Of a stretch of 44,630 nucleotides of DNA, positions 1 through 27,144 are shown in pieces. The translations under genes were made by a program, and so were the position numbers. This DNA is from an uncultured Chthonomonas sp. (GTDB taxonomy: Bacteria > Armatimonadota > Chthonomonadetes > Chthonomonadales > CAJBBX01): NCBI GenBank assembly GCA_903885605.1, contig CAISJD010000143.1, positions 1 to 44,630 of the forward strand, written 5' to 3'. The notes below the pieces were generated by a model. It did not search any database. It was not told where the DNA came from and saw nothing but the letters and a program-made list of their open reading frames with translations. Numbering within the stretch: position 1 is the first letter of the stretch; each line of letters opens with the position of its first letter.

Positions 1-818
1 GCCGGGGCGTCCTTGATGTAGAAGGAGCCATAGTAGGTCCCGTGGCGTTCCGGGCAGAAGTAGACGTCTGCATCGATCGAGCCCGCGTACCAGCTGAACA
101 GGTCGCCGGCGTAGGTCATGACCGCGACCCCGGCGCCCTGCGGCAGGCCGGCCATCCTGGTCCGCACCTGGTCGTCGGTAATGTCAGGCCACGACTTCCA
201 GCCCTTGCCCTTCATGGCGTCAAGATACGCCTTCTGGTCGGCATCCATCGATCCAAGGACCTGGGCGTACAGCAGGGCGCGGTCGAAGCTGATCTGGCCG
301 TCGAGTTGGTACAGCTCCCGGGACGCCTTCTTCACCGCATTCAGGTTCAGGCCGGTCGAACCTGCCGGCAGGTCGCCCTCCAGCAGCCGGCGGAACGCCT
401 TCATGAGCGGGTAGCGCTTCATGCCGTAGAGATTCAGCTGCTCGCTTTGAGCGAGCGCCAGGGTCTTCAGGCGGCTGAACTGGCTGTCGTTGAGCATGAA
501 GATGACGTTGTTGGCGACGCGGGTGAGGAAGCTCGTGTTGTGCCCCATGCCGTCGGGATCGTTGTCCCGCAGGTACTGGAAGCCGGTGTAGTCGGCCACT
601 TTGCCCGGCGGGAAGAATGACTGCGACTCCAGGTTCCCGGTCACCATGGCAAGGCCTGAGAAGGCGATGGTGGTTCGCTGCGCGCCGTCGGACAGCGTCT
701 GGGAGAGGTTGTACTGGGGCGTCGGCGCGGCAGACTGGCTTGAGCCGCCTCCGCAGCCGACGAGGGACGACGCACTCAGTACGGCGACAAGCAGAGCAGT
801 GATGGTCTTGGTGGACAT
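1..818 (-). CDS. Secreted lipoprotein of the CPERHGTY family (3' end cut by window edge)
   Basis: I do not recognise this family. The frame is open from an ATG at 818 to the left edge, so the C-terminus is missing. A GGGAGG Shine-Dalgarno sequence lies just upstream (about 826-831). The N-terminus is a lipoprotein signal with lipobox LVGC (Cys22) followed by Gly/Ser residues, so the protein is predicted to be membrane-anchored outside the cytoplasm. The mature part aligns without gaps by eye with the two genes to its right: a segment ending in SFFPPGKVADYTGFQYLRD, a GHNTSFL segment, and CPERHGTYYGSFYIKD at the truncated end. Two LTxxQ-like helices (LNDSQ, MDADQ) are visible. It is the third and last member of a same-strand paralogue array, 143 nt after the stop of the second. 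Family relationship is certain; function is unknown. Confidence 0.85.
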   Translation of the reverse strand, partial: MSTKTITALLVAVLSASSLVGCGGGSSQSAAPTPQYNLSQTLSDGAQRTTIAFSGLAMVTGNLESQSFFPPGKVADYTGFQYLRDNDPDGMGHNTSFLTRVANNVIFMLNDSQFSRLKTLALAQSEQLNLYGMKRYPLMKAFRRLLEGDLPAGSTGLNLNAVKKASRELYQLDGQISFDRALLYAQVLGSMDADQKAYLDAMKGKGWKSWPDITDDQVRTRMAGLPQGAGVAVMTYAGDLFSWYAGSIDADVYFCPERHGTYYGSFYIKDAP

Positions 819-961
819 GACAACCTCCCGGGCTTTCGCCCTGTGTGCTCCCCGACCGGCTCGCGCCGGCATCTGTGGCTGTCAGATCGACCGGGGCTGG
901 GAGTGGCTGTGGATGCCCGATCGATGTCACGTCATGCGGAACGCCATGGGCCGTCGCACCG

Positions 962-3139
962 TTACGGCTGCGCCGGGCCCGGTTCGTCGGCCGTGCCGCC
1001 GCGCGTGTAATTCGTACTGAGCGCCGCCGATGCCAGGACCTTGCCCCGCATGGCGTCCAGCAGCGTCTGGCGGGTGACGTCGGCGGCCGGCGCCGATAGG
1101 CTGATCGGCTCGGAGAGCGCGTAGAGCGTCAGCACGTAGGTCTTCGTGCCGGGGCCCTTGGAGTGGGGCGGCGCGTAGGCCGTCTTGCCGTCGACGCTGT
1201 TGTTGCCTGCGACCCCGACCCCGGCGCTGCCCTTGGCGAGCTTCCGGACGGTAGCCGGGATGTCGTAGAGGGTCCAGTACCACTTGGTCCTGCCCTCGGG
1301 ATCGACGTGGTGCATGATCAGCGCATAGCTCTTCGTGGCGGCGGGTGCGCCGGACCACTCCAGCGGAGGGCTGGCGCTTTCGCCGTCGCCGGTGAACTCG
1401 ACCGGGAGCACGCCGTCCGCGCCGATGGCCGGGCTGCGAAGGACGAAGCCTGCCTGCTGCTTCGGCGCGCTCGGGGCCGGCCGGGCGGAGCCGCCCGAAG
1501 GCGACCCCGCGTTCTTGGCCGGAGCGAAGAAGAAGTGATCCGTGGATGGGATCGGCACGGCGGTCCGGACCGGATCGGAGTAGAGGTAGGCCGGCGCGCT
1601 GGTGTAGCCGTCCAGGTTGCGCAGCCGAACCAGCTCCGCCCGCTGCTCGGAGGTGAGGGTCTTGCCCGCCGATGCGAAGGCCGCCGCGTAGAGGTAGGAC
1701 ATGGCGCCGTCCAGTTCGCCGTAGCGGCGTCCGAGCGACACAACCTTCTCCTTGCTCGCCTGCCCTCCGGTCAGGAACTTCCGCAGCTCCTGGGATATCG
1801 CCTGGCGAACGGTGACCACCTCGTTCATGTCCTTGCGCTGCAGGTCAGGGATGGCGATGATCGGCCGGCGCTGCTCCTGGGAGAGCGTGGCGAGGAAGGC
1901 CTGGCCGCTATCGCCCGTGACCGAGGTGCTGATGTCGTAGTCTCGCTTGCCCATCGCCGGCATGTCCTTCATGTAGAAGCCGCCGAAGTAGGTGCCGTGG
2001 CGCTCGGGGCAGAAGTAGACATCCGCCTTGACCGATCCGGCGTACCAGCTAAAGAACTCGCTGGCGCAGCTCATGTAGGCCACGTTCACCGGCTTCTCGG
2101 TGCCGCGCGGCAGCTTGTAGCCTGAGACATCCAGGTCCGGCCAGCTGCCGAAGTCGCCGAACTTCATCTTGCCGAGGTAGGCCTTCTGGTCGGCCGTCAG
2201 GGAGTTGGCGATCTTGCCGAAGACCCGGGACCGCTCGTAGCTGATCTCGGCGTCGAAGGCGAAGATGTCACCGACGGCGCGTACGACCGCGGCCTTGTTG
2301 AGCCCGGAGCTGCCCGACGGGACCTCACCGGTCAGGTTGCGGCAGAAGGCCTTGATGATCGGCAGCCGCATGAGCGCGAGCTTGTTCATCTGCACGGCCT
2401 CCTGGCGGGCCAGGGCCTCCAGGGTCTGCTTCTGGGCCGGCGTCATCACGTGCAAGACGTTGGCGACCACGCGGTCGAGGAACTTGGGGTTGTGCCCTGC
2501 CTGGGCCGCGTCGATGTCGCGCATGTACTGGAACCCGAAGTAGTCGCAGACCTTGCCGGGCGGCAGGAAGGTGCAGGCGCCGTAGTCGCCCGTGATGAAG
2601 GCCAGCCCGCTGAAGGCGATCGTATGGAGCTGGGCGTTGTCAGAGATGGCCTGCTCCAGCGAGTAGGCCTGCGGCCCGCCCTGGCCCTGGCCCCGAGGCC
2701 CGCCGGGGCCGCCCTGGCCGTCGTCGCCGGGTCTGGCCGGCCCACCCGGCCCGCCCTGCTCGTTGGGGCCGCCCTGGCCCTGTTGCCGACGGCCGCCGGG
2801 CCCGTTGCCCTGCCCCGCCCCGGACTGGGCCGGGAGGTTGGCCTTGCTCACGAGCTTCAGGTCCTTGGCGGAGTACTGGTAGAGCACGTTGCCGACCAGC
2901 ACGTACACATAGTCGCTGTTGGCCACGACCACCGCCTGCTGCTGCGCCGGCGGCCGCCTCTCGTCGGTCCGGCCCTGTTGCGCGTTAGCGCCTCCGCGAG
3001 CGGCGCCCGATGCGCCGGCCTCGGGGCGGTCCTGCATGTCCCCCTCCTGGGCGCAGGCCCCCATCGTCCCTGCTGCCAGGGCGAAGCCCGCCAGCGCACT
3101 CCAGGAGGCGTACCGTCTGATCATCAGCCTCGATCTCAT
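962..3139 (-). CDS. Secreted CPERHGTY-family protein with C-terminal PEBP (YbhB/Raf-kinase-inhibitor-like) domain
   Basis: This is a 725-residue exported protein. I chose the ATG at 3139 because GGAGGAGG lies just upstream; the open frame runs 16 codons further without a better site. The order is: signal peptide (about 1-30, ending MGACAQ, either a poor lipobox or a signal-peptidase-I site), a short propeller-like strand motif (YVYVLVGNVLYQY, about 78-90), a Gly/Pro/Gln-rich linker (about 104-159), the family core (about 160-545) with CPERHGTY at 377-384 and several LTxxQ-type helices (MTPAQ, LTADQ, LSQEQ, LTSEQ), and a PEBP-like domain (about 564-714) recognisable from the SPPLEWSG and YALIMHHVDP segments. 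PEBP proteins bind small ligands or inhibit enzymes, but nothing here fixes a ligand. The core is of unknown function. It sits between two paralogues on the same strand and shares an upstream block with the gene that starts at 4917. Confidence 0.85.
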   Translation of the reverse strand: MRSRLMIRRYASWSALAGFALAAGTMGACAQEGDMQDRPEAGASGAARGGANAQQGRTDERRPPAQQQAVVVANSDYVYVLVGNVLYQYSAKDLKLVSKANLPAQSGAGQGNGPGGRRQQGQGGPNEQGGPGGPARPGDDGQGGPGGPRGQGQGGPQAYSLEQAISDNAQLHTIAFSGLAFITGDYGACTFLPPGKVCDYFGFQYMRDIDAAQAGHNPKFLDRVVANVLHVMTPAQKQTLEALARQEAVQMNKLALMRLPIIKAFCRNLTGEVPSGSSGLNKAAVVRAVGDIFAFDAEISYERSRVFGKIANSLTADQKAYLGKMKFGDFGSWPDLDVSGYKLPRGTEKPVNVAYMSCASEFFSWYAGSVKADVYFCPERHGTYFGGFYMKDMPAMGKRDYDISTSVTGDSGQAFLATLSQEQRRPIIAIPDLQRKDMNEVVTVRQAISQELRKFLTGGQASKEKVVSLGRRYGELDGAMSYLYAAAFASAGKTLTSEQRAELVRLRNLDGYTSAPAYLYSDPVRTAVPIPSTDHFFFAPAKNAGSPSGGSARPAPSAPKQQAGFVLRSPAIGADGVLPVEFTGDGESASPPLEWSGAPAATKSYALIMHHVDPEGRTKWYWTLYDIPATVRKLAKGSAGVGVAGNNSVDGKTAYAPPHSKGPGTKTYVLTLYALSEPISLSAPAADVTRQTLLDAMRGKVLASAALSTNYTRGGTADEPGPAQP

Positions 3140-3208
3140 TGTCCTATCCTCCTCCAAAGGCGCCTGGCGGTTGGCTCGTCCGCCCACCAGGCGTCCATCA
3201 GATACACT

Positions 3209-3240
3209 CTAACAGGCGCAGATGACGCCTGCGTGACGAC
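3209..3240 (-). promoter_or_regulatory. Conserved upstream block, copy 1 (candidate promoter/operator)
   Basis: This 32-nt block lies 70 nt upstream of the ATG at 3139. It matches 26 of 32 positions of a block 105 nt upstream of the paralogue starting at 4917 (5022-5053). The shared core on the plus strand is CAGATGACGCC, followed by TGACG. Read towards the genes, a TAGAGT-like hexamer at its proximal edge could be a -10 element. Duplication together with the genes could also explain the similarity. Confidence 0.45.
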
Positions 3241-3285
3241 AACGGGTGGTTTCGCAGAGTCGGCGAAAACGCCCCGATGCCGTCC

Positions 3286-4917
3286 TCACTTCACCTGGAA
3301 CGGGGCGCTGTCGACGGTCTGCAGCCCGCTTGCGGTGGCGCGCAGCGTGTAGGCGCCGGGCCTGTCGATGCTCAGGCCGGGGAACGTCGCGATACCCGCC
3401 ACGGCGGCGACCGAAGTCACGCCGCGGAGCTTGGCGCCTGTCCTGTTGATGCCCAGGTTCAGGCTGACCACGTTGGTGGCCGTGGTGACCACGTTTCCGG
3501 CGGCGTCGAGGACCGCGATCCGCACGGGCGGGTTGATGGCCGCGCCGACGCGCGTCGGCGCGGGCTGCACAGCCACCGCCAGCTTCGCCGGGAGCGACGG
3601 CGCGGCGAACAGGAAGTCCGTGTTCGCCACGTACGGAGCCAGGAGCGACAGGTCCGTGATCACGGCCGAGTAGAGGAACGGCGTGGTGCAGAGGGTGAAG
3701 TCGAACGGCGTTCCGTCGGCGTACGTGCCGCACAGGATCTGGGCCCTGAGGGCGGCGAGCTTGGCCCTCTGGGCATTGGTCAGAGAGCGTCGGAGCTGGG
3801 CCATGGTGGTGGCGTAACGGACCTCGTTCTCGCCGTCCAGTTCGCCGTAGACCGCCGACCTGGCCAGCACGTAGGCGCGCACCTGGGCCAGGTGCGCCGC
3901 GCTGGGCGGATCCGGAGTGACGAGGCTACGCAGTGCGGCGGCGATATCGGTCCGCGCCTGCACCATGTTGACGGCGCCCGCGTACAGGTTGTTGCGCTGG
4001 GCGTCCACCAGCTGGGTGAAGAGGGCGGCCTGCGCCGCCGTCACGTAGCCGAGTCGGCTGTCGCAGAGGGCGCTGCCCGCATCCGCCGTAAGCGACTGCG
4101 AGATGCTGTAGCCCTCGTGCCCTATGGCGGGCGCGTCCTTCATGTAGAAGGAGCCGAAGTACGTTCCGTGGCGCTCCGGGCAGAAGTAGACATCGGCCTC
4201 GAGCGAGCCCGCGTACCAGCTGAAGAGGTCGCCCGCGTAGGTCATCACGGCCACCGACTGGTCGTGCGACAGGCCGCGAAGCCTATCCCGGACCTGGTCG
4301 CCTGTGATGTCGGGCCACGATCCCCATCCACGGCCGACCATGGCGTCGAGGTAAGCGACCTGGGCCTCGGTCATGCTCCGGTAGATATCGGCGTAGAGGA
4401 CCGCACGGTCGAAGCTGATCTGCCCATCGATGAGGTACAGCGACCTTGAGGCGTCCTTCACGGCGGCGAGGCTCAGGCCCGGCGATCCGGCCGGCCCGGT
4501 CCCGTCCACCAGCCTGCGGAACGCCTTCATCAGTGCGAATCGCTTGTACCCGTACGCATTGATCAGGCCCACCTGGCCGGTAGCCACGGCCTTGAGCGAC
4601 GCCAACTGTGCGTCGGTGAGGATGTACAGCACGTTGTCGGCCACCCGGCTCAGGAAGCTGGTGTTGTGGCCCATGTCGTCCGGGTCGTTGTCGCGAAGGT
4701 ACTGGAAGCCGGTGTAGTCCGCCACCTTGCCGGGCGGGAAGAACGACTGCGCCTCCAGGTTCCCGGTGATCATCGCCAGCCCGCTGAACGCCAGGGTGGT
4801 CCGCTGGGCCTGGTCCGAGATCGCCTGAGCCAGGGTATGGTCCTGCGCACAAGCCGGAGCCGCCGACCAGAGCAGCATCGCCGCGGTGAGCGCTGCGAAC
4901 CGAAATCCCACTCTCAT
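3286..4917 (-). CDS. Secreted CPERHGTY-family protein with C-terminal Ig-like domain
   Basis: This is a 543-residue exported protein of a family I do not recognise. The start at 4917 has a GAGAGGGG Shine-Dalgarno about ten nt upstream and gives a clean type-I signal peptide ending at about ACA|Q (residues 1-24). The core contains SFFPPGKVADYTGFQYLRD (58-76), GHNTSFL (83-89), SWYAG followed by CPERHGTY (246-253), and four xTxxQ helices (LTDAQ at 100, MTEAQ at 182, VTAAQ at 292, LTNAQ at 379) that resemble the motif of Spy/CpxP periplasmic proteins. Residues about 445-543 form a bacterial Ig-like beta-sandwich (AVLDAAGNVVTTA and GAYTLRATA strands), as in adhesins and cell-wall enzymes. It is the first gene of the three-member array. 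The role is unknown; an envelope-located binding or stress function is only a guess. Confidence 0.87.
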   Translation of the reverse strand: MRVGFRFAALTAAMLLWSAAPACAQDHTLAQAISDQAQRTTLAFSGLAMITGNLEAQSFFPPGKVADYTGFQYLRDNDPDDMGHNTSFLSRVADNVLYILTDAQLASLKAVATGQVGLINAYGYKRFALMKAFRRLVDGTGPAGSPGLSLAAVKDASRSLYLIDGQISFDRAVLYADIYRSMTEAQVAYLDAMVGRGWGSWPDITGDQVRDRLRGLSHDQSVAVMTYAGDLFSWYAGSLEADVYFCPERHGTYFGSFYMKDAPAIGHEGYSISQSLTADAGSALCDSRLGYVTAAQAALFTQLVDAQRNNLYAGAVNMVQARTDIAAALRSLVTPDPPSAAHLAQVRAYVLARSAVYGELDGENEVRYATTMAQLRRSLTNAQRAKLAALRAQILCGTYADGTPFDFTLCTTPFLYSAVITDLSLLAPYVANTDFLFAAPSLPAKLAVAVQPAPTRVGAAINPPVRIAVLDAAGNVVTTATNVVSLNLGINRTGAKLRGVTSVAAVAGIATFPGLSIDRPGAYTLRATASGLQTVDSAPFQVK

Positions 4918-5176: not shown

Positions 5177-7270
5177 CTACTCGCGAGCTGTCACCGCCGC
5201 GCCCACGAGCGAACGCACGACGCCCGAGCCGGAGCGCACGGTGAACCGGCCGCCATCGACACGGACATCGAATGTCCGGCCGCGAATGCGCAACCCCTTC
5301 AGGGCCATGCGCGGCGAGTAGGCCGGCGGGTGCGGGTCCACGGTGACGGAGCCGTCGGCATGGACCTCGATGCCGAAGAGGCCGAAGATGACGGCCTGCG
5401 CACCGGTGGCGCCGTCCAGCGTGCACTGGAGCGGCGTGTCGTGGCGGGTATCGATCCGCTCGGCGACGATGCTGTCGCCCCAGTAGGGGAGCCTCTCGCC
5501 CCACCAGAGGATGCGCTCCAGGAGATCGGCGGCCTCGGCGGGGCGGCCCGCGCGGCAGAGCTTCTCGATGACCTGCGGCGGGAAGCAGGTGCAGGCGCCG
5601 GGTCCGCCGTTGTCCACATCCGCCGGGTCATAGGCCACATCGGTCTTCGCCAGGCTGTGCATGCCGTAGGCCGAGAGGAACTCGCGGTCGTTGAGGTGGC
5701 TCAGGAGGCCCTCCTCCTGCTCGGCGTCCAGCACGCCGCTGCCGAAGAGCTTGTACATCTGGATCGTCCAGCGCAGGTCACGCTTGCCCTCGCCCTCGAA
5801 GGCGAACCAGCGGGCCCGGGCGTCCCACAGCTCGCGCTTCAGCAGCGCCTTGAGCCGCGCCGCGCGGTCGCCCAGCCAGGGCTTCGGCTCTCCGGCCAGT
5901 TCGCAGAGCGACTGCGCCCAGAGGTAGCCCTGGTAGCGGCGTCCGTTCAGGTCCGGCATCACGTGGTTGTACGGGTAGCCGCGCCGCAGCTCCAGGTGGC
6001 TGTTCGAGGGGCCGTAGTCGATCATCGCCACCGGCTTGGCCGTGTCGTCGAGGAGGGTGGCGTGGTGGACCACCCACTCCAGCACGCTCCGCCCGTTCAC
6101 CTGCTCACGCAGGAGCGCGGTGTCGCCGGTCAGGCGCACGTAGTGAAAGATCGAGCCGAGGATCTTCTCCTGGTTCACCGGGTACCAGGGGCCGAAGGCG
6201 GCGCCATTCACCGGGTTGAAGGCGAAGTGGGTCGAGATGTCGCACTTCAGGTAGTGGAGGATGTGCGCCCGCGCCGCGGCGGGGTCGTCCAGCGGCAGGA
6301 TCTCCCAGACCTCGCCGTAGTTCCAGAGGTAGCAGCAGACACAGCCGCCCTTGACGCTGCCGGTGGAGTAGTAGGGTTGCAGGATGAACTCCGGCACGTC
6401 CCAGCGGTTGGTGAGCAGGTGGACGAGCGACCGGTTGTAGAAGGCCGTGAGCCGAGGGTCCGACGCCTCCAGCCGGGGGAGCCGCTGGAAGAGCCCTTCG
6501 GCGCGGCGAGACCAGTGGCGGCGGGTCGCGTCCATGGCTCGGGCGGGATCGGCGGCCACGCGGGCGCACTCGGCGCGGGCCTCGGCCTCCCGACCCATGG
6601 CCAGCACGACCCAGACGCGGCGCGCCTGACCGGGCCGCAGCCGCACAACGGCGCTCCAGTGCGACCCCTCGGCGTCCCACGTCCCGTCCGCGCCCACGGT
6701 GCGGAGCGGCATGCAGAGGCCGCCCCGGCCGCGCTCAACGCCTCCGGCCGCCGGGCGCGACGGGGCAGGAGTAGCGCTCGACGGGCGGGCGAACTCCCAC
6801 TCGGTGCGCGAGTCCAGCGTGCCGGAGAAGGCCAGCTCCAGCGGCACATCGACGGCCGATGAGCCGCGGTTGCGCATCTCGGCTTCCAGCGCCAGCGCCC
6901 GCGAGCCCGCCACGGCCAGCGTGGTGGTCGTGACCTCGACGCCGCCGCACCGCCCGTGCCGGACCACCTGCATGGGGAGCCACTCGTACCGCTCGGCGGG
7001 AAGCGACCGCCCGAAGAAGCGCAGGTCCAGCCGCAGGTCCGAACTCACATAGGGCGGCGCCCAGACGCCCCGCACGGCGCTCAGGTCCGCATGCGCCACG
7101 CCGCACGTGAGCCGCCCGCCGACGATGCCGAACTGCTCCTCGTCGAGGATGTTGCGCTCACCCGCCATGCCGAAGAGCCGGAGCGACGGCGAAATGGACG
7201 AAGCCCCCACGGCCGGCGACGCCACGGCAACCACCACGAACGCGGCCAGCGCCGCAGAAAGCCAGGGCAT
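5177..7270 (-). CDS. Secreted six-hairpin (alpha/alpha)6-barrel glycoside hydrolase
   Basis: This is a 697-residue secreted enzyme. The open frame reaches a TTG at 7300, but the ATG at 7270 has GAGGGAG upstream and begins a proper signal peptide (cleavage near VGA-SS). An N-terminal beta-sandwich (about 25-230) precedes an alpha-helical catalytic region (about 260-610) with the aromatic, repeated-helix look of six-hairpin glycosidases (YNRSLVHLLTNRW, YLWNYGEVWEILPL, GPWYPVNQEKILGSIFHYVR). A short C-terminal beta-domain follows, as in GH63/GH65/GH78-like proteins. I cannot name the exact GH family or substrate. The gene starts 36 nt after the stop of the peptide synthetase upstream on the same strand, so the two are probably co-transcribed. 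Acidic residues that could be catalytic are present but I cannot assign them by eye. Confidence 0.8.
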   Translation of the reverse strand: MPWLSAALAAFVVVAVASPAVGASSISPSLRLFGMAGERNILDEEQFGIVGGRLTCGVAHADLSAVRGVWAPPYVSSDLRLDLRFFGRSLPAERYEWLPMQVVRHGRCGGVEVTTTTLAVAGSRALALEAEMRNRGSSAVDVPLELAFSGTLDSRTEWEFARPSSATPAPSRPAAGGVERGRGGLCMPLRTVGADGTWDAEGSHWSAVVRLRPGQARRVWVVLAMGREAEARAECARVAADPARAMDATRRHWSRRAEGLFQRLPRLEASDPRLTAFYNRSLVHLLTNRWDVPEFILQPYYSTGSVKGGCVCCYLWNYGEVWEILPLDDPAAARAHILHYLKCDISTHFAFNPVNGAAFGPWYPVNQEKILGSIFHYVRLTGDTALLREQVNGRSVLEWVVHHATLLDDTAKPVAMIDYGPSNSHLELRRGYPYNHVMPDLNGRRYQGYLWAQSLCELAGEPKPWLGDRAARLKALLKRELWDARARWFAFEGEGKRDLRWTIQMYKLFGSGVLDAEQEEGLLSHLNDREFLSAYGMHSLAKTDVAYDPADVDNGGPGACTCFPPQVIEKLCRAGRPAEAADLLERILWWGERLPYWGDSIVAERIDTRHDTPLQCTLDGATGAQAVIFGLFGIEVHADGSVTVDPHPPAYSPRMALKGLRIRGRTFDVRVDGGRFTVRSGSGVVRSLVGAAVTARE

Positions 7271-7306
7271 GGTTTGGTTAGCTCCCTCGGCAGAAGGCAA
7301 TGCCCC

Positions 7307-10300
7307 TCAGTTCTGCACGAGGCCTGGCGGCTCCTGCTCGGCTGATGCCGCGGCAGCTTGGCGAATCTCGCGGACGAGCGCCTGAGAGAGCGCTTGTACG
7401 TGCGGCTCCTCCAGCATGGTCAGGTGGTCGCCCGGCACGTCAATCACCCTCAAGTCACCTCGGGCGAATCGCCTCCAGCCCATGGCGCCGTCAGGATCGA
7501 TATGCAACGGGTGTTCATCCGCCCTGAACAAGGCGACGCGCCCGCAGTAAGGACCCGGGCGGTAGCGCTCATAGGCAAGCCGGTGTGCGATCTTGGTCCG
7601 CTCCCAATGGTCGAGGGCGCTCGGCGCCACGATCTGGTGGAGGCGGCGTATCCAGAGCCTGCGCGAGAGCGTATGCAGTTTGGCACGGATGTGCCGCAAT
7701 CGGTCGCCGTTCGGAGTACGCACCAGCTTGCCTACGTGGTAGGCGATCCGGCGGTGCAGCGGCTGCGCCGCGCAGCCGTCGGGGAAGCCGGCATCGAGTA
7801 GGACCACGAGTGGCACGCGAACGCTACGCCGCGCAAGTCGGCACGCGAGCTCGTAGGCGACGGTGCCGCCAAAGGATGAGCCGATCAGCATGCATTCCGG
7901 CAAGGGCAACTGGGCGGCAAGGACCTCGGCGTAGTCCTCGGCCAAACGCACGACATCGTCCACAGGCGGGTTCCGCCCGTCCGTAGAGCGTGCGACCAAC
8001 GCGTAGACCGGCAGCTCGTCGCCGAGCGCAAGGAAGAGTGAGCGGTACCCAAACGCACGCCCGGCGAGCCCATGCACGAGCACCAGGGGCGGTAGCGAGC
8101 CCTGCGGCCTGATGGGCACCAGCGGCAGGCTATGCATGGCGGCCTGCCCCTCCTCGATGGCGTGCGCGATATGCGCTACGGTCGGCCTTTCAAAGATAAT
8201 GCGGAGGGGCACATCGGCGCCCATCGTCTCCCGTACGCGATGGGCAAGCATGGCCGCCAGCAGGGAGTGGCCGCCCAGGGCGAAGAAGTCGTCCTGCACG
8301 CCGACGCGTTCCAGGCCGAGCAGGCCGGCGCAGAGCCCGGCAATCTCCTCCTCCAGCGGCGTCCGCGGGGCCACGTAGGTGTCGGGGTCCGCAACTGCGA
8401 CCCGATCCGGCGCGGGAAGGGCCTTTCGGTCCACCTTGCCGCTCGGCAGGAGCGGCAGGGCATCGAGGGCGATGTAGGTCCAGGGCAGCATGTAGTCCGG
8501 CAGCCGCGCTGCGGCCGCCGTCCGAGCCGCTCCCTCATCGAAGGTAGCCCCGTCCCTCGGGACGACATACGCGACCAGGCGTACATCACCGTCGGCCCAC
8601 TCGTGGGCAACCACAAGCGACTGGCGGACGCACGGCGCGTCGGCCAGGACACACTCAATCTCCCCTGGCTCGATGCGATGGCCCCGGATCTTGATCTGGT
8701 GGTCGGCGCGCCCCATGAAGTGCAGGAAGCCGTCAGGCGATCGTCTCGCGAGGTCTCCCGTACGGTACATCCTCTGCGGCGGCCGGCCAGGCAGGCTCAC
8801 GGCCATGAAGCGTTCGGCGGTCAACTCCATCGCGCCCGAGTAGCCCAGGGCGAGGCACTCGCCGGCGAGGTAGACCTCACCCGTCACGCCCACAGGAACC
8901 AGGCGGCGCCGGTTGTCCAGGAGGTGGGCCTCGGCGTTTGCGATTGGGCGCCCCAAGCAGACCGGGCCCGGCGGCTCGTCCCCTGTGACCGCGTAGCTTG
9001 TCGCCCAGATGGTCGCCTCGGTCGGCCCATAGACGCAAAGTGGACGAACCCGGCCCTCGGTGATCTCAATGAGCCGCGCCATCAGGTCGGCCGGCACCGC
9101 TTCGCCGCCGCAGAGCGCGCCGCGCAAGGCTGTGCATCGACCGAGACCGGGCATATCCAACAGCATACGGTAGAGCGACGGCGTGCCCTGGATGATCGTC
9201 ACGCCGTGGCGCTCGATCAGCCCGAGGAGGGACCCCGGGTCGAGGCGCTCGCCTGGAGGCGCCAGCACGACGCAGCCCCCCACCAGTAGCGGCGCCCAGA
9301 ACTCCCAGACGGAGATGTCAAAGATGGGGGTCGTGCTCTGCAGCACACGGTCGCCGCACCCAATCCGCAGGGCGTCGACCGACCACCAGAGATAGTTAAC
9401 CACGGCTCGGTGCGGCACGGCGACGCCTTTGGGCCTGCCGGTGGAACCCGACGTGAACATGACGTATGCGGCCGTCTCCGGCTCGACCTCCGGCCATGCG
9501 GTGTCGGCAGGAGCAGGAGGACAGCCACGCAGGTCGGTGACGGGCACGAAGGGCGCCGCTCGGAAAGCCAGGTCTGGATCGCAGACGGCCAGTACGCACG
9601 CGGCATCCTGCAGCATGTGCGCCATTCGCTCCTGCGGGCATTCCGTATGAACCGGCACGTAGGCGGCACCGGACAGGAGTACACCCAGGTACGCCACAGC
9701 CAGATCCAGTGAGCGCCGCATCAGGACCGCGACCGTGTCGCCCGGCCCTACGCCCTGCGCCCGCAGGTGCGCCGCCAGAGCCCCGGCTTGATCGCGCAGT
9801 GCTGCGTAGGTGAGCGAACCTGTGTCAGACAGGACGGCGACGACGCCCGGGGTTCGCTCCGCCTGCTCAAGCGCCAGTTGATGCAGCAGGCCCCTCGGGT
9901 AGGTGGCGCCTGTATCGTTCCATTGGTCTAGAAGCTGGTCCGCCTCCTGCCGCGTCAAGAGCGGCAGTTCGTGGAGGCGCTCCTCGGGGTTCGCTACGGC
10001 GCCGGCCAGCAGCGTTTCGAAGTGGACCGCGAGCCGCTCGATGGTGGCGGCGTCGAACAGGTCGGTGCTGTACTCCCACTCCGCCGCCATGCTGCCGTCA
10101 GGCATCGGCGTTGCGGCCAAGGTCAGGTCCAGTTTGGCTGTGCCCGTTGCGATGGGCACGGGCTCCATCGCCAGTTCGCCCAGACGGTCCGGGTAGGCTT
10201 CGGTGTTCTGGAACAGGAGCATCACCTGGAAGATCGGGTGGCGGCCCATGTCCCGTTCAGGCCGGACGGCGTCCACAACCAGGTCGAACGGCGTCTCACC

Positions 10301-13300
10301 ATGCTCAAAGGCATCCAGGGCTGTGTCCCGAACTCGCGCCATGAGGTCGGCGAAGGTCAGGTCGCCGACAACCTCTGTTCGCATCGCGAGCATGTTCACG
10401 AAGAAGCCTACGAGCCCCTCAAGTTCAGGCCGCGACCGGCCAGCCGCCGCGGCTCCCACAACGATGTCCGATGTCCCCGTATACCGGTGGATGAGCGTCT
10501 GCAGGCCGGCCAGCAGAGCCATGAAGAGGCTGGCGCCGTGCCGATTCGCCAGGTCGGTGAGCGCACCGACCTGGTCGGCAGGCAGCCGACGGCGGACAAC
10601 CGCGCCGCGGTAGCTCTCTACCGCCGGCCGGGAGCGATCTGTGGGCAGGCTGACGGGCTCCAGCGCGGCAAGGCGACGGCTCCAGTACTCCAGATCAGCC
10701 GCTTCGGCGCCGCATCCCAGCCCCCTCCGTTGCCAGGCGGCATAGTCGGCGTACTGCACGGCCGGCTCTGGCAGTTGCGCGGTCCGTCCCGCTGTTGCTG
10801 CGGCGTAGAACCCCGACAGCTCACGCAAGATCAGCGCGACCGACCAGCCATCCACTACCGCATGGTGGAAGACAAGCAGGATGACGTACTCGGTCGCTTC
10901 GAGCCGGTAGAGTGTCGCGCGGTACAGGGGGCCGGCCGACAGGTCGAACGGTAACCGGACCTCCCGTTCGGCCGCCTGCCGGAACCGCTCGTCCCTTGCC
11001 TCATCGGCCGCATCCGTCAGGTCGACCGTTTCAATGGACCCCGAGTGCCTTGCTGCCACCCGCTGGCGGGGCTCGCCATCCACGAGCTCGAATGTCGTCC
11101 TCAGCGCTGCATGGCGGGCAACCACATGGCTCAGCGCAGTCTGGAGTGCGGCCTCGTTGAGCGAGCCCGTGAGCCGCACCGCGACAGGCGTGTTGTAGAC
11201 AGGTGACCCCGGCGTGAGCCGATCGAGGAACCAGAGGCGCTCCTGCCCGGATGAGAGCGGCGCCGGGCCATCGTCGGCTCGCCGCGGGATGGGCTGCAGC
11301 GCATCGGATGGCGCCGTCGCGCCGCCGCCGGCCTCCGCCATGCCGGCGACGGTGCGGCGCTCGAAGACGACCCTGAGCGGCACTTCAACTCCGGTGGCTT
11401 CGCGCACCCGGTGCGTCAGCATCACCGCCAGCAGGGAGTGGCCGCCCAGGGCGAAGAAGTCGTCCTGCACGCCGACGCGTTCCAGGCCGAGCAGGCCGGC
11501 GCAGAGCCCGGCAATCTCCTCCTCCAGCGGCGTCCGCGGGGCCACGTAGGTGTCGGGGGCCGCAACTGCGACCCGATCCGGCGCGGGAAGGGCCTTTCGG
11601 TCCACCTTGCCGTTCGGCAGGAGCGGCAGGGCATCCAGCACCGTGAAGCTCGATGGAACCATGTACTCGGGGAGCGTCTGCCGCACGAATGCAGCCAGCT
11701 CAGCGGCCGTCGGCATCGCGCCGGGTACGGGCGTGGCATAGGCCGCCAGGTACGTGCCAACCGGGCCGTCGTCGCGCGCGACCACCACCGCCTGGCGCAC
11801 CCCCGCATGCGCCGTCAGCACGGCCTCGACCTCGCCTGGCTCAATGCGGTGACCCCGAATCTTCACCTGGTCGTCGATCCGGGCCACGAAATCCAGGTTG
11901 CCGTCCGGCAGGTACCGCACGAGGTCGCCGGAACGGTACATGCGCGCTTCGGGTTCCTCCGTGAATGGGTCTGCAACGAAGGCGGCTGCCGTGAGTTCGG
12001 GGCGGTTCAGGTAGCCCCTGGCAAGACCATCGCCGCCGATCCACAGTTCGCCGACGCAACCAATGGGCAGGGGTTGCCGGTGAGCATCAAGGACATAGCA
12101 GCGCGTATTCGCAATGGGCCGACCTATGGGAATGCTATCTCCACGGTACGCGGCGGGGACGGCGTAGCAGGTGGTGAAGGTTGTGCTTTCCGTGGGACCG
12201 TAGCCGTTGGTGACGCGCAGATCGGGCAGGGCCTCCATGGCGGCCCTGACATGCGGTACCGATAGCCGCTCGCCACCGGTAAGCACGTGACCCAGGCCTG
12301 ACAGGGCGGCCGGATCGGTCGCCACAATGCTGTTGAACAGGCTGGCGGTAAGCCACATTGCTGTCACGCCGTGGCGGGATATCAGCGCTCCAAGCGCCGC
12401 CGGGTCGACTGGCCCCGGATGGTACACTGCCACCGCTCCGCCATTCAGGAGCGCCCCCCATATCTCAAACGTCGATGCGTCAAATGCTAGCGGCGCCTGG
12501 TGGAGTACCGTCTGGCCGGGGCCGAGGTCGGTATAGTCGGTGCCACAGAGCAGTCGAACCACGCCTCGGTGGGGTATCTCCACGCCCTTCGGGGTTCCAG
12601 TCGAACCGGATGTGTACGAGACGTATGCCAGGTCAAGCGCGTCGCCGGCAGGCATGACAAACGGCCTATCAGCCGCCGGGTTGTCTGCGTCAATGCAGAT
12701 GCGGTGCATCACAGATGCCGGCAACCGATCCGCCGTCCGCTTTTGCGTCAGCGCCACGGTGATGCGTGCGTCAACGACCATGTACTCAAGGCGGTCGGTT
12801 GGGTAGTCAGGGTTAAGGGCCACATATGCGCCACCTGCCTTGAGGATGGCCAATAGGCCCGTGACCATCCCGGCGCAGCGCTCCATGCAGACGCCTACCA
12901 TTGACCCGCGCAGCACCCCCGCAGCCTGCAAACGCGCCGCCAGGTGATCAGACGCCCTGTGGAGGTCGCTGTAGGTCTGCACGCTATCGCCGAAGCGGAC
13001 GGCAACGGCATTGGGGGTTCGTTCCGCCTGCGCAAGGAACAGCTCATGCACACGTGCGTCACGGGGATACGGTAGTGCCGTACGGTTCCACTCCACCAGT
13101 ATCTGGTGTCGCTCGGCTTCGGTGAGGAGCGGCAGTTCGCTGATGCGTCGCTCGGGGTTGGCAATGGCTCCAGCCAGCAGCGTCTCGAAGTGGCCCGCCA
13201 ACCGAGCAATGGTAGCGGCGTCAAACAGGTCCGTACTGTACTCCCAGAGCAACCGCGCGGCGCCCGCCCGTTGCTGGATGCCGAGTGACAGGTCAAACTT

Positions 13301-14530
13301 CGAGGTTCCGGTGTCGATGTCCACCGGCTCGGCGACCAAGTCACCCCACTGCCCCCCCGAAGCCGGGTCCAGCATCTGGGTACAGGCGACGCTGAGCAAG
13401 CGGCTGTCGCCGATGCCGGCTGCCCTGCCCATCTCTCGGATGAGGTGGTCATATGACGCTAGCTGATGGGTTAGTCCCTCCCGCATCACGTGGCGCGTCT
13501 GCTCGACGAGGTCGGCAAAGCTCCGTGAGGGAGCGGCGTCCAGCCGCATAACGAGTGTGTTTACAAGGAACCCGACGACTCCGTCGAGGTTGGGCGCTTC
13601 TGTCCCCAGGCGCCGACCCGAGGCAACGGTGCCGAACACAATGTCTTCATTGCCTGCCCACCGATGCAGCAGCGCCGCGAACGCAGCCGTCAGTACCATG
13701 AACGGCGTGGCGCCAAGCCGTTCTCCGATGCCCAGAACATCCCGGTACAGCGGGGGCGGCATCGGCCGTATGTGCGTCGCTCCTCGGTAGGAGGCGCTCT
13801 CTCCGGGCCGGTCAACGGGGAGGTTGGGTCCGGGCACACCGTGGAGCCGCTCAAGCCAGTAAGCGATGTCACGGTCGCACGCATCCGCCGGTAGGCCGTC
13901 CTGCCACCGCGCGAAGTCGGCGTATTGCACGACTTCGGCGCCCAGCGGCGAGGGAGTGTGCGATGTGCGTGCCATGTAGGATGCAGCCAGTTCGCGGCTC
14001 AGGATTCCCTGTGAGGCGCCGTCAGTCACGATGTGGTGCACGACGACCAGGAGGACATGATCCTGCGGCCATATGTGGAACAGATGCGCGCGAATCAGGG
14101 GGCCCTCGGTCAGGTCGAATGGCAGGCGGGCCGCCTCGCGCAGGAGCTGACGCAACGCCTCCTCACGCTCTGCGGCCTGGATGCCTTCGAGGTGGGTATG
14201 GGCCATGTCCACGATAGCGGCTTCGTGGATGCGTCGAAGGGGAATGCCATCTACCGCCGGGAAGCTTGTCCGCAACGAGCCGTGCCGGCTGACTACCTCG
14301 TTCAGGCTTGCCGCAAGTGCTGATGCGTCGAGGGGGCCACGAAGGCGGATGGCGACAGGTTCGTTGTAGGCAGGCTCATCGCCATGAGGCCGACATTCGA
14401 GCCAGATGCGCAACTCGCCTGCGGTCAATCGTTCCATGCCTTGCCGATCATCGATGGCGGATGGTCCTTTGTCGCGGCAGGCGTCGCACGGCGCATCCGG
14501 ACAGCAGCAGGAGTGAACATGGCGGTTCAT
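7307..14530 (-). CDS. Two-module non-ribosomal peptide synthetase, C-A-T-C-A-T-TE
   Basis: This 2407-residue cytoplasmic megasynthase would build and release a short peptide. Domains in order: C1 (HHIVTDG at 165-171), A1 (TSGSTGTPKG near 645), T1 (LGGHSL, carrier Ser1032), C2 (HHAVVDG near 1222), A2 (TSGSTGRPKG near 1695), T2 (LGGHSL, Ser2089), TE (GSSFGG near 2218, His in GDHLTM near 2372). All core motifs look intact. Aligning the pockets to GrsA by eye gives DAFWLGGTF-K for A1, close to the valine code, and DIWQLGVIW-K for A2, closest to the glycine code. Starting with a C domain suggests N-acylation by an acyl donor or an upstream partner, but no partner, MbtH, Sfp-type transferase or exporter lies nearby. 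The ATG at 14530 has GAGG eight nt upstream; it adds a Cys-rich N-terminal tail before the C domain. No epimerase or methylase domain is seen. Confidence 0.95.
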   Translation of the reverse strand: MNRHVHSCCCPDAPCDACRDKGPSAIDDRQGMERLTAGELRIWLECRPHGDEPAYNEPVAIRLRGPLDASALAASLNEVVSRHGSLRTSFPAVDGIPLRRIHEAAIVDMAHTHLEGIQAAEREEALRQLLREAARLPFDLTEGPLIRAHLFHIWPQDHVLLVVVHHIVTDGASQGILSRELAASYMARTSHTPSPLGAEVVQYADFARWQDGLPADACDRDIAYWLERLHGVPGPNLPVDRPGESASYRGATHIRPMPPPLYRDVLGIGERLGATPFMVLTAAFAALLHRWAGNEDIVFGTVASGRRLGTEAPNLDGVVGFLVNTLVMRLDAAPSRSFADLVEQTRHVMREGLTHQLASYDHLIREMGRAAGIGDSRLLSVACTQMLDPASGGQWGDLVAEPVDIDTGTSKFDLSLGIQQRAGAARLLWEYSTDLFDAATIARLAGHFETLLAGAIANPERRISELPLLTEAERHQILVEWNRTALPYPRDARVHELFLAQAERTPNAVAVRFGDSVQTYSDLHRASDHLAARLQAAGVLRGSMVGVCMERCAGMVTGLLAILKAGGAYVALNPDYPTDRLEYMVVDARITVALTQKRTADRLPASVMHRICIDADNPAADRPFVMPAGDALDLAYVSYTSGSTGTPKGVEIPHRGVVRLLCGTDYTDLGPGQTVLHQAPLAFDASTFEIWGALLNGGAVAVYHPGPVDPAALGALISRHGVTAMWLTASLFNSIVATDPAALSGLGHVLTGGERLSVPHVRAAMEALPDLRVTNGYGPTESTTFTTCYAVPAAYRGDSIPIGRPIANTRCYVLDAHRQPLPIGCVGELWIGGDGLARGYLNRPELTAAAFVADPFTEEPEARMYRSGDLVRYLPDGNLDFVARIDDQVKIRGHRIEPGEVEAVLTAHAGVRQAVVVARDDGPVGTYLAAYATPVPGAMPTAAELAAFVRQTLPEYMVPSSFTVLDALPLLPNGKVDRKALPAPDRVAVAAPDTYVAPRTPLEEEIAGLCAGLLGLERVGVQDDFFALGGHSLLAVMLTHRVREATGVEVPLRVVFERRTVAGMAEAGGGATAPSDALQPIPRRADDGPAPLSSGQERLWFLDRLTPGSPVYNTPVAVRLTGSLNEAALQTALSHVVARHAALRTTFELVDGEPRQRVAARHSGSIETVDLTDAADEARDERFRQAAEREVRLPFDLSAGPLYRATLYRLEATEYVILLVFHHAVVDGWSVALILRELSGFYAAATAGRTAQLPEPAVQYADYAAWQRRGLGCGAEAADLEYWSRRLAALEPVSLPTDRSRPAVESYRGAVVRRRLPADQVGALTDLANRHGASLFMALLAGLQTLIHRYTGTSDIVVGAAAAGRSRPELEGLVGFFVNMLAMRTEVVGDLTFADLMARVRDTALDAFEHGETPFDLVVDAVRPERDMGRHPIFQVMLLFQNTEAYPDRLGELAMEPVPIATGTAKLDLTLAATPMPDGSMAAEWEYSTDLFDAATIERLAVHFETLLAGAVANPEERLHELPLLTRQEADQLLDQWNDTGATYPRGLLHQLALEQAERTPGVVAVLSDTGSLTYAALRDQAGALAAHLRAQGVGPGDTVAVLMRRSLDLAVAYLGVLLSGAAYVPVHTECPQERMAHMLQDAACVLAVCDPDLAFRAAPFVPVTDLRGCPPAPADTAWPEVEPETAAYVMFTSGSTGRPKGVAVPHRAVVNYLWWSVDALRIGCGDRVLQSTTPIFDISVWEFWAPLLVGGCVVLAPPGERLDPGSLLGLIERHGVTIIQGTPSLYRMLLDMPGLGRCTALRGALCGGEAVPADLMARLIEITEGRVRPLCVYGPTEATIWATSYAVTGDEPPGPVCLGRPIANAEAHLLDNRRRLVPVGVTGEVYLAGECLALGYSGAMELTAERFMAVSLPGRPPQRMYRTGDLARRSPDGFLHFMGRADHQIKIRGHRIEPGEIECVLADAPCVRQSLVVAHEWADGDVRLVAYVVPRDGATFDEGAARTAAAARLPDYMLPWTYIALDALPLLPSGKVDRKALPAPDRVAVADPDTYVAPRTPLEEEIAGLCAGLLGLERVGVQDDFFALGGHSLLAAMLAHRVRETMGADVPLRIIFERPTVAHIAHAIEEGQAAMHSLPLVPIRPQGSLPPLVLVHGLAGRAFGYRSLFLALGDELPVYALVARSTDGRNPPVDDVVRLAEDYAEVLAAQLPLPECMLIGSSFGGTVAYELACRLARRSVRVPLVVLLDAGFPDGCAAQPLHRRIAYHVGKLVRTPNGDRLRHIRAKLHTLSRRLWIRRLHQIVAPSALDHWERTKIAHRLAYERYRPGPYCGRVALFRADEHPLHIDPDGAMGWRRFARGDLRVIDVPGDHLTMLEEPHVQALSQALVREIRQAAAASAEQEPPGLVQN
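8254..8464 (-). repeat. Intragenic duplication, copy in module 2 (A-T linker and carrier domain)
   Basis: This 211-nt segment is identical to 11425-11635 except at two positions. It encodes the end of A2 (GKVDRKALPAP), the linker and the first half of T2 including the carrier serine. The surrounding A and C domains are far more divergent, so this tract looks like a recent duplication or gene conversion. Confidence 0.95.
11425..11635 (-). repeat. Intragenic duplication, copy in module 1 (A-T linker and carrier domain)
   Basis: This is the partner of 8254-8464 at an offset of exactly 3171 nt (1057 codons), with two mismatches in 211 nt. It covers the end of A1, the linker and the first half of T1. 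The frame is kept, so recombination between copies would delete or duplicate one whole module in frame. Confidence 0.95.
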
Positions 14531-18770: not shown

Positions 18771-21700
18771 ATGAACCCACTCCTGGCCGCACTGGTTCTG
18801 GCCCTGCCGGGCGGCGCGCCTGCGGGACCGGCGGACCCGTTCGCCTACCCGGCCGACGCCGAGTGGACGGCGCAGTGGGTCTGGGGCTCGGAGGCGCCGC
18901 ATGGACCGAACGGCTGGTTCCGCCGCGAGATCCAGGTGGGCGCGGGGCTCACGGCGGCGTGGGGTCAGATGAGCGGCGACGACGGCTATACGCTCCTCGT
19001 GAACGGACGCGAGGTGCGCCGGGGCGGCTTCTGGTGGAAGACCACCGACCGCGCCGACCTGCGCCCGTTCCTGCACGCGGGGACCAACGTGCTGGCCGCC
19101 CGCGTGGCCAATGCGGCGCACCCCGGCGGCTTCCTCCTGCAGGCCGACCTGCTCTACGGCGACCGCCTCCAGACCGAGGCCACCGGAGCGGCCTGGCGGT
19201 TCACTCCCCGCGACCCGGGCGCCGGCTGGGCGGAAGCCGGGTTCGACGACGGCGGCTGGGAGCCCTGCAAGCCCATGGGTTCGCCGCCGGCGGCCTCGCC
19301 CTGGGGCGCGCTGCCGCTGACCTATGCCGGTCCGCGCTTCCCCGTGCGGCTGGAGGCGCCCGTGGCCCCGCAGCGCGTGAGGGCCGGTTCGGCGCTCACC
19401 TTCACGCTGCGGCTCGCCGTGCCGCCGCAAGCCGCGGGCCGTGGCACGCTGGACGTGGCCCTGCGCGACGATGTGCGGCTGGCCGCCCGCGTGGCGATCC
19501 CGGTGGCGCTGCCGGCCGGGGGCGGCCGCGTCGCGCTGAAGGTCCGGGTCCCGGTGGGCCGGTATGCGGCCGACGGCCGGTTCCGCATCGAAGCCGGGCT
19601 CCGGCGCTCGCGCTACACGAACGCGGCGATCCGGGGCTTCCGCGTGGGCGAGGCGACCATCCAGCGATCCGTGCCGCCGGGGACGGTGACCACCGCCGAG
19701 GTGAGGCCCTACCACGGCGCGCCCACGCTCCACCTCAACGGCAAGCCGACCTTCGCGCTCTGGTTCTACCAGGGGCAGCCGAACCCCCGCGACCTCCGCG
19801 CCTTCCACCGCGCCGGCGTCGATGTCGTCACCACCGATATGCCGATGGGCTGGACCGGGCCGGGCAAGAGCGACTTCGCGACCTTCGATGACGCCGCGGC
19901 CCGCATCCTGGACGCCAACCCCAACGCCTACCTCGTGCCGCGGCTCTGGCTCTCCGCGCCCGGCTGGTGGCTCGACGCGCACCCCGACCAGATCGTCAAG
20001 ATGGCCGACGGCTCCGGCTGGGTCGAGAACGGCTTCGGCGGCACGCGGCACGAGTCCTTCGCGTCGGAGCTCTGGCGCCGCGAGGCCGGCGAGGCCCTGG
20101 CGCGCCTCATCCGCCACGTGCTGGCCTCGCCCTACTCCGACCGCGTCATCGGGTACCACCTCGGCAACGGCATCTACACCGAGTGGCACGCCTGGAGCGC
20201 GCCCAACCTCCCCGACGTCTCCGAGCCCATGCGCCTGCGCATCGCAGCGTTCGCCCGCGACCGCTACGCCGGCGACGAGGCCGCCCTCCGCGCCGCCTGG
20301 GGCATGCCCGAGGTGACCTTCGATACCGTCCGCTGCCCGACGCAGGCCGAACGCCGGAGCGGCGACGTGGGCGTCTTCCGCGACCCGGCCCGGTCGCGCT
20401 TCGTGGCCGACGCCTACGAGGCCTTCCACCTGGCGTCCGTCGAGGCGATCCTCTCGTTCTGCAAGGTCGTGAAGCGGGAGACGCGCCGCCGGGCCTTCAC
20501 GCTGGCCTTCTACGGCTACATGCCCGACCTCGACTGGCCCCAGGAGGGCGACCACCGCGCACTGGACGTGCTGCTCCGCTCGCCGGACATCGACTGCCTC
20601 GCCAGCCCCCACTCCTACGAGCGGCGCGCGCTGGGCCAGGACGGCCTCTTCCGACACCATCCCGCCTCGGTCAGGCTCCACGGCAAGCTCTTCATCGATG
20701 AGGGCGACGACCGCACGCACCTGGCCAACGACCCGCAGTTCACCCACGTGAAGAACGCCGCCGAGGCCGCCGCCGTGCTGCGCCGCGCCGCGGCCAACGC
20801 GCTGACGCACCACGTGGGCATCTGGACCATGGATCAGCAGGGCAACTGGTTCAACGACCCGCGCCTCATGGCCGAGATCGCCCAGCTCAAGCGGCTGGGC
20901 GAGGAGTCGATGGCATCGCCCAGGCGGCGCACCGCGCAGGTCGCCGTGGTCATCGCGCCGCACAGCGACTTCCACATGGCCGGCCGCACCTCCGGGCTGG
21001 ACCACGTCACGTTCGCCCTGCTCCAGAAGCAGATCGGCGAACTGTGCCGCGCCGGGGCGCCCTTCGAGGTCTACCTGGTGGATGACCTGGCCGACGCGCG
21101 CATGCCCGACTACAAGCTCTACGTCATGCTGGAGTGCTTCGCCCTGACCGACTCCCAGCGGGCCGCCGTGAAACGCAAGCTCGCCCGGCCAGGCGCCACG
21201 GCGCTCTGGTTCTACGCTCCGGGCTATGTCACCGATCACGGCCTCTCCGCCGAGGCCGCCTCCGAGACGGTCGGCATGGCCTTGCGGGCCGAGACGGCGC
21301 CGCGGGAGCTCAGGCTCGCGTCATGCGATCCGGCGCTGGGGCCGGTGGGCACGGAGTTGGGCACGGGCGGCGGCCAGTCGCCGGCGTTCACCTGCATCGA
21401 TGGGGCGGCCCGCCCGCTGGCCCGGTACGCCGGATCGGACGCCGTCGGCATGGCCGCCCGTGGGAGGTCGGTCTTCTGCGCCGTGCCCGGCCTGCCGCCC
21501 GCCATGCTCCGGTCCGTCTACCGCATGGCCGGCGTACACGTCTACGCCGACGCCGACGACCCGCTCACCGCCGATGCCCGGTTCGTCTCCCTGCACACGG
21601 CCACGGCCGGCGCGAAGACGATCCGCCTGCCCGAGCGCCGCACGGTGGTGGACGCCCTCACCGGCGCCGCCCTCGCCCGCAACGCCACCTCCTTCACCTT

Positions 21701-21779
21701 CCCGGCGCGGGAGCACGAGACCTACCTGTTCCGGCTGCTCGGCGAGGGCGTCGCCGACCGCGGGCATGGGCGGCAGTAG
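18771..21779 (+). CDS. Secreted GH42-like (clan GH-A) glycoside hydrolase with N-terminal galactose-binding-like domain
   Basis: This 1002-residue enzyme has a short signal peptide and GGGGGAGAG upstream of its ATG. Residues about 30-180 resemble the N-terminal jelly-roll of alpha-rhamnosidases (WVWGSEAPHGPNGWFRREI, GFDDGGWEPC). A beta-domain (about 190-300) precedes a TIM barrel (about 315-680). In the barrel the acid/base is probably Glu471 (GNGIYTEWHAW) and the nucleophile Glu644 (LHGKLFIDEGDD), in the order and spacing expected for GH42-type beta-galactosidases. The part after about 710 (QVAVVIAPHSDFHM, ADARMPDYKLYVML) looks like the flavodoxin-like trimerisation domain of GH42, and a small beta-domain ends the protein. 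The substrate is unknown; the sugar-binding front end suggests a polysaccharide or decorated oligosaccharide. Confidence 0.8.
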   Translation: MNPLLAALVLALPGGAPAGPADPFAYPADAEWTAQWVWGSEAPHGPNGWFRREIQVGAGLTAAWGQMSGDDGYTLLVNGREVRRGGFWWKTTDRADLRPFLHAGTNVLAARVANAAHPGGFLLQADLLYGDRLQTEATGAAWRFTPRDPGAGWAEAGFDDGGWEPCKPMGSPPAASPWGALPLTYAGPRFPVRLEAPVAPQRVRAGSALTFTLRLAVPPQAAGRGTLDVALRDDVRLAARVAIPVALPAGGGRVALKVRVPVGRYAADGRFRIEAGLRRSRYTNAAIRGFRVGEATIQRSVPPGTVTTAEVRPYHGAPTLHLNGKPTFALWFYQGQPNPRDLRAFHRAGVDVVTTDMPMGWTGPGKSDFATFDDAAARILDANPNAYLVPRLWLSAPGWWLDAHPDQIVKMADGSGWVENGFGGTRHESFASELWRREAGEALARLIRHVLASPYSDRVIGYHLGNGIYTEWHAWSAPNLPDVSEPMRLRIAAFARDRYAGDEAALRAAWGMPEVTFDTVRCPTQAERRSGDVGVFRDPARSRFVADAYEAFHLASVEAILSFCKVVKRETRRRAFTLAFYGYMPDLDWPQEGDHRALDVLLRSPDIDCLASPHSYERRALGQDGLFRHHPASVRLHGKLFIDEGDDRTHLANDPQFTHVKNAAEAAAVLRRAAANALTHHVGIWTMDQQGNWFNDPRLMAEIAQLKRLGEESMASPRRRTAQVAVVIAPHSDFHMAGRTSGLDHVTFALLQKQIGELCRAGAPFEVYLVDDLADARMPDYKLYVMLECFALTDSQRAAVKRKLARPGATALWFYAPGYVTDHGLSAEAASETVGMALRAETAPRELRLASCDPALGPVGTELGTGGGQSPAFTCIDGAARPLARYAGSDAVGMAARGRSVFCAVPGLPPAMLRSVYRMAGVHVYADADDPLTADARFVSLHTATAGAKTIRLPERRTVVDALTGAALARNATSFTFPAREHETYLFRLLGEGVADRGHGRQ

Positions 21780-27080: not shown

Positions 27081-27084
27081 GCCT

Positions 27085-27114
27085 GCAATTATGGAGTCTC
27101 GCTCCATGAATTGC
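27085..27114. promoter_or_regulatory. 30-nt inverted repeat at the start of the DUF4143 ATPase gene
   Basis: On the plus strand GCAATT-ATGGAG (27085-27096) is separated by a 5-nt loop from CTCCAT-G-AATTGC (27102-27114). The arms pair over 12 bp with one bulged base. It ends four nt before the preferred start codon at 27080 (read on the minus strand), so it could be an operator or a hairpin controlling translation. If the gene starts at 27116, the repeat is coding. Confidence 0.6.
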
Positions 27115-27144
27115 AAGGTTCAGAGGCGCAGTTCGGCCTCGGCG

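Follow-up and report, generated by a model that had tools for sequence, protein, structure and literature searches.

The first 4.9 kb of the window (the whole 44,630-nucleotide stretch of DNA analysed here, from an uncultured Chthonomonas sp.) contain three minus-strand genes, P0001, P0002 and P0003, whose products have a common core, raising the question of what this core is and in what setting it acts.

Three exported proteins with one core

Pairwise comparisons bore out the kinship proposed by a sequence-only reading of this DNA, with P0001 sharing 71% identity with P0003 (E 4.9e-114) and 45% with P0002 (E 4.7e-81). In all three proteins the secreted core is ~400 aa long and carries CPERHGTY, and this segment, the SFFPPGKV-type segment and SWYAGS lie where they had been placed (Table 1). 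The export signals, read by eye, likewise agree with that reading: a lipobox (LVGC) in P0003, a signal peptidase I-like site (ACA|Q) in P0001 and an ambiguous signal in P0002.

Table 1. Positions of the array's features in the window (last row: loci in other genomes)
Feature	Position	Strand	Basis or remark
P0001, secreted core protein (clade B) with C-terminal Ig-like domain, 543 aa	3286..4917	-	
P0001 core repeat 1, residues 28-212	4282..4836	-	half-vs-half profile comparison; predicted helices
P0001 repeat-1 signature FFPPGKVADYTGFQYLRD, residues 59-76	4690..4743	-	
P0001 GHNTSFL segment	4651..4671	-	G83, H84 invariant 80/80
P0001 core repeat 2, residues 217-440	3598..4269	-	LTXXQ sub-threshold match, residues 302-390
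P0001 repeat-2 signature CPERHGTYFGSFYMKD, residues 246-261	4135..4182	-	
P0001 C-terminal Ig-like domain (putative), residues 443-543	3289..3591	-	identity to the phylum's tandem repeats; low-confidence strands in model
P0002, secreted core protein (clade A) with C-terminal PEBP, 741 aa from GTG	962..3187	-	
P0002 N-terminal motif YVYVLVGNVLYQYSAKDL	2858..2911	-	related stretch at G000:C72
P0002 core	1511..2683	-	profile match, 560 bits
P0002 CPERHGTYFGGFYMKD	1964..2011	-	
P0002 PEBP domain, residues 594-727	1007..1408	-	PF01161, E 3.5e-24
P0003, lipoprotein core protein (clade B), from likely ATG at 818	3..818	-	window edge cuts gene
P0003 CPERHGTYYGSFYIKD	9..56	-	
Small unnamed helical domain	L100 956-1489; L092 1178-1729		also at N-termini of clade A cores

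The three proteins differ in what is attached to the core. P0002 ends in the PEBP domain that had been proposed, which passes the Pfam cut-off for the YbhB/YbcL-type family (86.1 versus 24 bits). In contrast to that known family, this domain is fused to a core and, judged by eye, reads DPEGRTKWYW and GPGTKTY at the motif segments that in PEBP proteins usually read DPDxP...H and GxHR, such that its anion site may be altered. The 'propeller-like front motif' assigned to the same protein turned out to be a single stretch of ~20 residues, related to one in another part of the same genome, and not a propeller. As to the Ig-like domain claimed for P0001, the C-terminal ~100 aa are ~40-53% identical (best matches) to tandem Ig-like repeats of giant proteins from the phylum, whereas Pfam returned sub-threshold matches only.

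For P0002, the ATG at 3139 is a more likely start than the GTG. The P0003 reading frame spans 3-872 overall and is cut by the contig edge, where an exact 29-base overlap links it to contig C181 on which the frame continues; we infer from this overlap, although it falls within a segment conserved between paralogues, that P0003 very probably completes there as core only. The homologue of P0001 in a sister genome (G001 contig C175; L033 7926-9571) falls into two reading frames that overlap, owing to a frameshift or else to a misassembly.

A duplicated core distantly related to LTXXQ proteins

Profile comparison of the two core halves with hhalign was decisive in revealing that the core is a tandem duplication: the halves aligned over 151 columns with a probability of 98.7% (E 1.6e-16), versus at best 0.8% in 30 column-shuffled controls. 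In this alignment PPGKVADYTGFQYLRD lies opposite CPERHGTYFGSFYMKD, and the segment PPGKVADY is the repeat-1 counterpart of CPERHGTY. The predicted helices of the two halves also correspond one to one and in the same order in a confident AlphaFold model of the core (pLDDT mostly 91-98). When the second half was modelled alone, confidence was lower and lowest around the signature, a weak hint of mutual dependence between the halves.

The core carries no NCBIfam name and had been regarded as unmatched to any known family, a view that its homologues do not bear out. Of 80 homologues, 64 hit Pfam LTXXQ (PF07813) with E<=0.1 (best 5.2e-12), and one of them (L091) exceeds the curated cut-off (34.6 versus 24.3 bits), while two window proteins stay below it at 16.3 and 18.4 bits and P0003 gave no match. 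Either half suffices for such matches, since first halves alone hit LTXXQ in 15 of 40 cases (best 5.8e-6) and second halves alone in 16 of 40 (best 3.8e-7). Metal_resist (PF13801) was weakly matched by 28 of the 80 members. In the family consensus LTxxQ-like segments occupy corresponding places of both halves, and Q104, Q186 and Q307 are invariant (80/80), with Q383 at 79/80. For the full core, Foldseek retrieved nothing from the PDB at E<0.001, the matches returned (mostly transporters) being discarded for their low probability, and PDB sequence searches with the core yielded nothing useful. An isolated half gave non-significant fold matches (probability ~0.2) to Spy (target TM 0.55, E 4.7) and NccX (0.51, E 6.3).

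On the basis of these profiles, the core appears to be a distant LTXXQ relative that should not be filed as a plain member. Like LTXXQ proteins (Spy, CpxP, ZraP) and the CnrX/NccX-like Metal_resist proteins, it is exported and helical with a similar helix pattern, and the profile similarity extends to both halves. Unlike the single small LTXXQ domain (~100-150 aa, homodimer), it consists of two fused copies, each preceded by a signature, and it is found in many domain fusions and in operons with enzyme-like genes. The conserved His/Glu/Met ligand pattern of CnrX, NccX and ZraP is absent, H84 being the only conserved His of the core. The boundary of the family is sharp, with whole or half cores scoring far above a few stray matches near 20-30 bits. 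What was an unnamed 'hypothetical protein' becomes a defined family of recognisable origin, an internally doubled LTXXQ unit.

Distribution, clades and associated modules

A pattern scan retrieved 78 loci, many of them from metagenome bins, with best-segment identities from ~40% to 91%. The hosts are bacteria (Armatimonadota, Chloroflexota, Acidobacteriota, Verrucomicrobiota, Planctomycetota, Bacteroidota, sulfate-reducing Desulfobacterota-type bacteria, Bacillota, Actinomycetota and others) and methanogenic archaea. Within the phyla sampled the core is patchy and rare (~1-3%): it occurs in 10 of 291 Armatimonadota genomes (one case being a weak fragment), in 2 of 197 genomes of the archaeal phylum and 3 of 301 of Chloroflexota (both samples including the centre genome), and in 7 clear cases among 289 Verrucomicrobiota (including the centre genome and a second known carrier). 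Twenty genomes that we checked hold 1-3 cores each, one weak fragment not counted. No core match was found in phages, and the one plasmid match, on a Chlorohelix plasmid, is a 'hypothetical protein' adjoining a YbhB/YbcL gene.

In a maximum-likelihood tree (rooted at the midpoint only, the deepest split reaching 90/96, below the starred level), P0001 and P0003 belong to deep clade B and P0002 to deep clade A. At least two core members occur in 28 of the 78 loci, always on one strand, and clades A and B adjoin in 13 loci from at least seven phyla, again all on one strand; these multi-member counts include some partial genes or frameshifted pieces. Because the two deep clades adjoin in so many phyla, the window array is an old mixed array whose B-A-B order follows a recurring pattern. 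We therefore reject a recent local triplication: P0002 falls outside clade B, and P0003 groups more closely with a Silvanigrella protein than with P0001. The three genes do share one core, but are not just local copies of it.

That one core is combined with interchangeable accessory domains, as the sequence-only reading had it, is a pattern widespread in other genomes. Fusions join the core to PEBP, Lcl_C, SMP-30, PKD, dockerin-like, EF-hand, SLH or metallophosphoesterase domains, and separate neighbours (from mechanical gene calls) comprise metallophosphoesterases, arylsulfotransferase-like, FGE-like, Lcl_C and sulfatase proteins. Several of these are recognised Pfam families: Lcl_C (PF07603), SGL/SMP-30 (PF08450), FGE-sulfatase (PF03781), Metallophos (PF00149), Arylsulfotrans (PF05935) and Sulfatase (PF00884). 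At least one module lies within ~8 kb of the core in 67 of the 78 loci and at least three in 27; the 11 loci with none include some on short contigs. Module matches fall nearly always on the core's strand (MPP 60/60, ASST 37/37, FGE 18/18, Lcl 59/59, SGL 31/31, PEBP 35/36, sulfatase 7/9), counts that include fused domains and several matches per protein, so that the numbers of loci (MPP 34, Lcl 28, ASST 18, FGE 16) are the fairer measure. Modules are also joined to one another, as in a 2441-aa neighbour (locus L066) that combines ASST, metallophosphoesterase, Lcl_C, FGE and SMP-30, and in another that combines FGE, PEBP and ASST. A small unnamed helical domain (LTxxQ...LTAEQAKAIHEAFRQAGLRGG...AAGFDP) belongs to the recurring set as well; it occurs in 25 loci, and 20 proteins carry it in one chain with the core.

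The window carries a reduced set, consisting of the B-A-B cores with PEBP and Ig-like domains, and one Lcl_C protein of the same kind is encoded elsewhere in the genome (L149 8032-11822, contig C72). Its neighbours are a propeller protein of PQQ type and a short gene in which the YVYILRGNTLFQFSAKEL motif from the P0002 N-terminus recurs. As the window locus is without most partner modules, and an arylsulfotransferase was not found in the window's genus, an assembly of these parts cannot need all of them. Our queries of an open-access literature library found no paper on the core family or the gene set, none that joins three of the module names and none that links LTXXQ with PEBP.

Possible roles of the core and its signature

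In the reading that we propose, two diverged helical units of LTXXQ type (Spy/CpxP/NccX-like), each preceded by its signature (PPGKVADYxGFQYLRD in copy 1, CPERHGTYFGSFYMKD in copy 2), make up the exported core and would form one pseudo-symmetric body. The signatures would be counterpart elements, probably structural or in contact with a ligand or partner, rather than a stand-alone Cys/His metal site. The core itself would most likely serve as the constant binding or scaffold subunit, possibly a ligand-sensing one, of a modular assembly at the cell surface. The remaining parts, fused or adjacent to the core, would be PEBP-like, Lcl_C, SMP-30 propeller, metallophosphoesterase, arylsulfotransferase-like, FGE-like and sometimes sulfatase modules, and paralogues of the two old clades are probably used together. 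We assign this explanation as a whole a probability of about 0.5. The duplication, the LTXXQ relation of the family, the fusions, the neighbourhoods and the clade structure on which it builds were computed (the export signals were read by eye); what we infer from them is the assembly, the pairing, the role in binding or sensing, and any activity towards phosphate or sulfate esters.

Domain fusion and a gene order conserved over bacteria and archaea argue for one functional cell-surface system. We tentatively consider, at somewhat less than even odds, that several bacterial phyla and methanogenic archaea share this as an undescribed system, whose doubled LTXXQ-like proteins act in pairs and either recruit phosphoesterase, sulfotransferase, sulfatase, lactonase-like, PEBP and Lcl_C modules or regulate them. 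Across these distant hosts, fusion and gene order tie the core to recurring exported enzyme-like domains. Should this link prove physical, the result would be a new surface system, the composition of which can be tested directly, and it would give context to the poorly understood Lcl_C, bacterial PEBP and FGE-like domains.

The alternative first suggested for this array places a metal or cofactor site at CPERHGTY and would make the core a metalloprotein or enzyme. The motif is invariant within the three window genes and varies across the family (H/Q and G/A). In 80 sequences P247, E248, Y253 and K260 are invariant, C246 is conserved in 77 (Phe, Ala or Asn replacing it in the other three), and D67, Q72, R75, H84, R126, R171 and D242 are further invariant polar residues, H84 (80/80) being the sole His among invariant or nearly invariant columns. 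The conservation of C246, P247, E248, Y253 and H84 would suit a metal site, as would the weak Metal_resist matches and the fact that the relatives NccX and ZraP bind metal. However, position 250 is His in 44 sequences and Gln in 36, and the residues aligned to Cys, Glu and His in repeat 1 are P, G and V, which makes a Cys-Glu-His site unlikely and rules it out as the default reading; a metalloprotein or enzyme is accordingly a distinctly improbable reading of the core. The invariance of E, P and Y rather indicates that the segment is important, likely as a structural or binding element. Motif conservation among the scanned loci is biased, because these were found with P0001 patterns, one of which covers YFGSFYMK; against a mere search artefact, 14 profile-found cores carry the motif too (9 with H, 5 with Q; the display pattern required part of the motif).

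The main rival to the scaffold proposal is CpxP/NccX-like sensing, a role that we judge unlikely and that is raised by signalling genes near some loci. CpxP, ZraP and CnrX are periplasmic sensor or accessory proteins of signalling systems, and the core, as their LTXXQ relative, could similarly bind a ligand to tune a histidine kinase or a sigma/anti-sigma pair controlling surface enzymes. Response regulators of a single cluster occur in 16 and histidine kinases in 12 of the 78 loci, some signalling genes lie ~100-800 bp from the core (L091, L068, L097, L067) and sigma-factor-like genes are present in 5 loci. Yet most loci are without signalling genes, no such gene was noticed next to the window array, two-component genes are widespread in general, and extracellular modules fused to the core better fit a structural or enzymatic setting. 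The LTXXQ relation would equally allow an ATP-independent, Spy-like extracytoplasmic chaperone for the very large exported proteins encoded next to the core, which we consider very unlikely on the grounds that many invariant polar residues and a sharp family boundary suggest a specific site, and that permanent fusion to a PEBP or propeller domain would be unusual for a general chaperone.

Several further genes accompany the array in the window. Directly upstream, 5177-7300 (-) encodes a 707-aa protein that appears glycosidase-like by eye and has no Pfam match at E<=1e-5. In the 2407-aa product of 7307-14530 (-), motif sets of the condensation, adenylation and carrier types occur twice each, along with a thioesterase-like motif at the C-terminus; these motifs mark it as a putative two-module non-ribosomal peptide synthetase. 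An ATPase with AAA_14 and DUF4143 is encoded at 25905-27116 (-), and large proteins at 18771-21779 (+) and 38500-42546 (+) have weak GH42-like and GH5-like matches, which suggest carbohydrate-active genes around the array.
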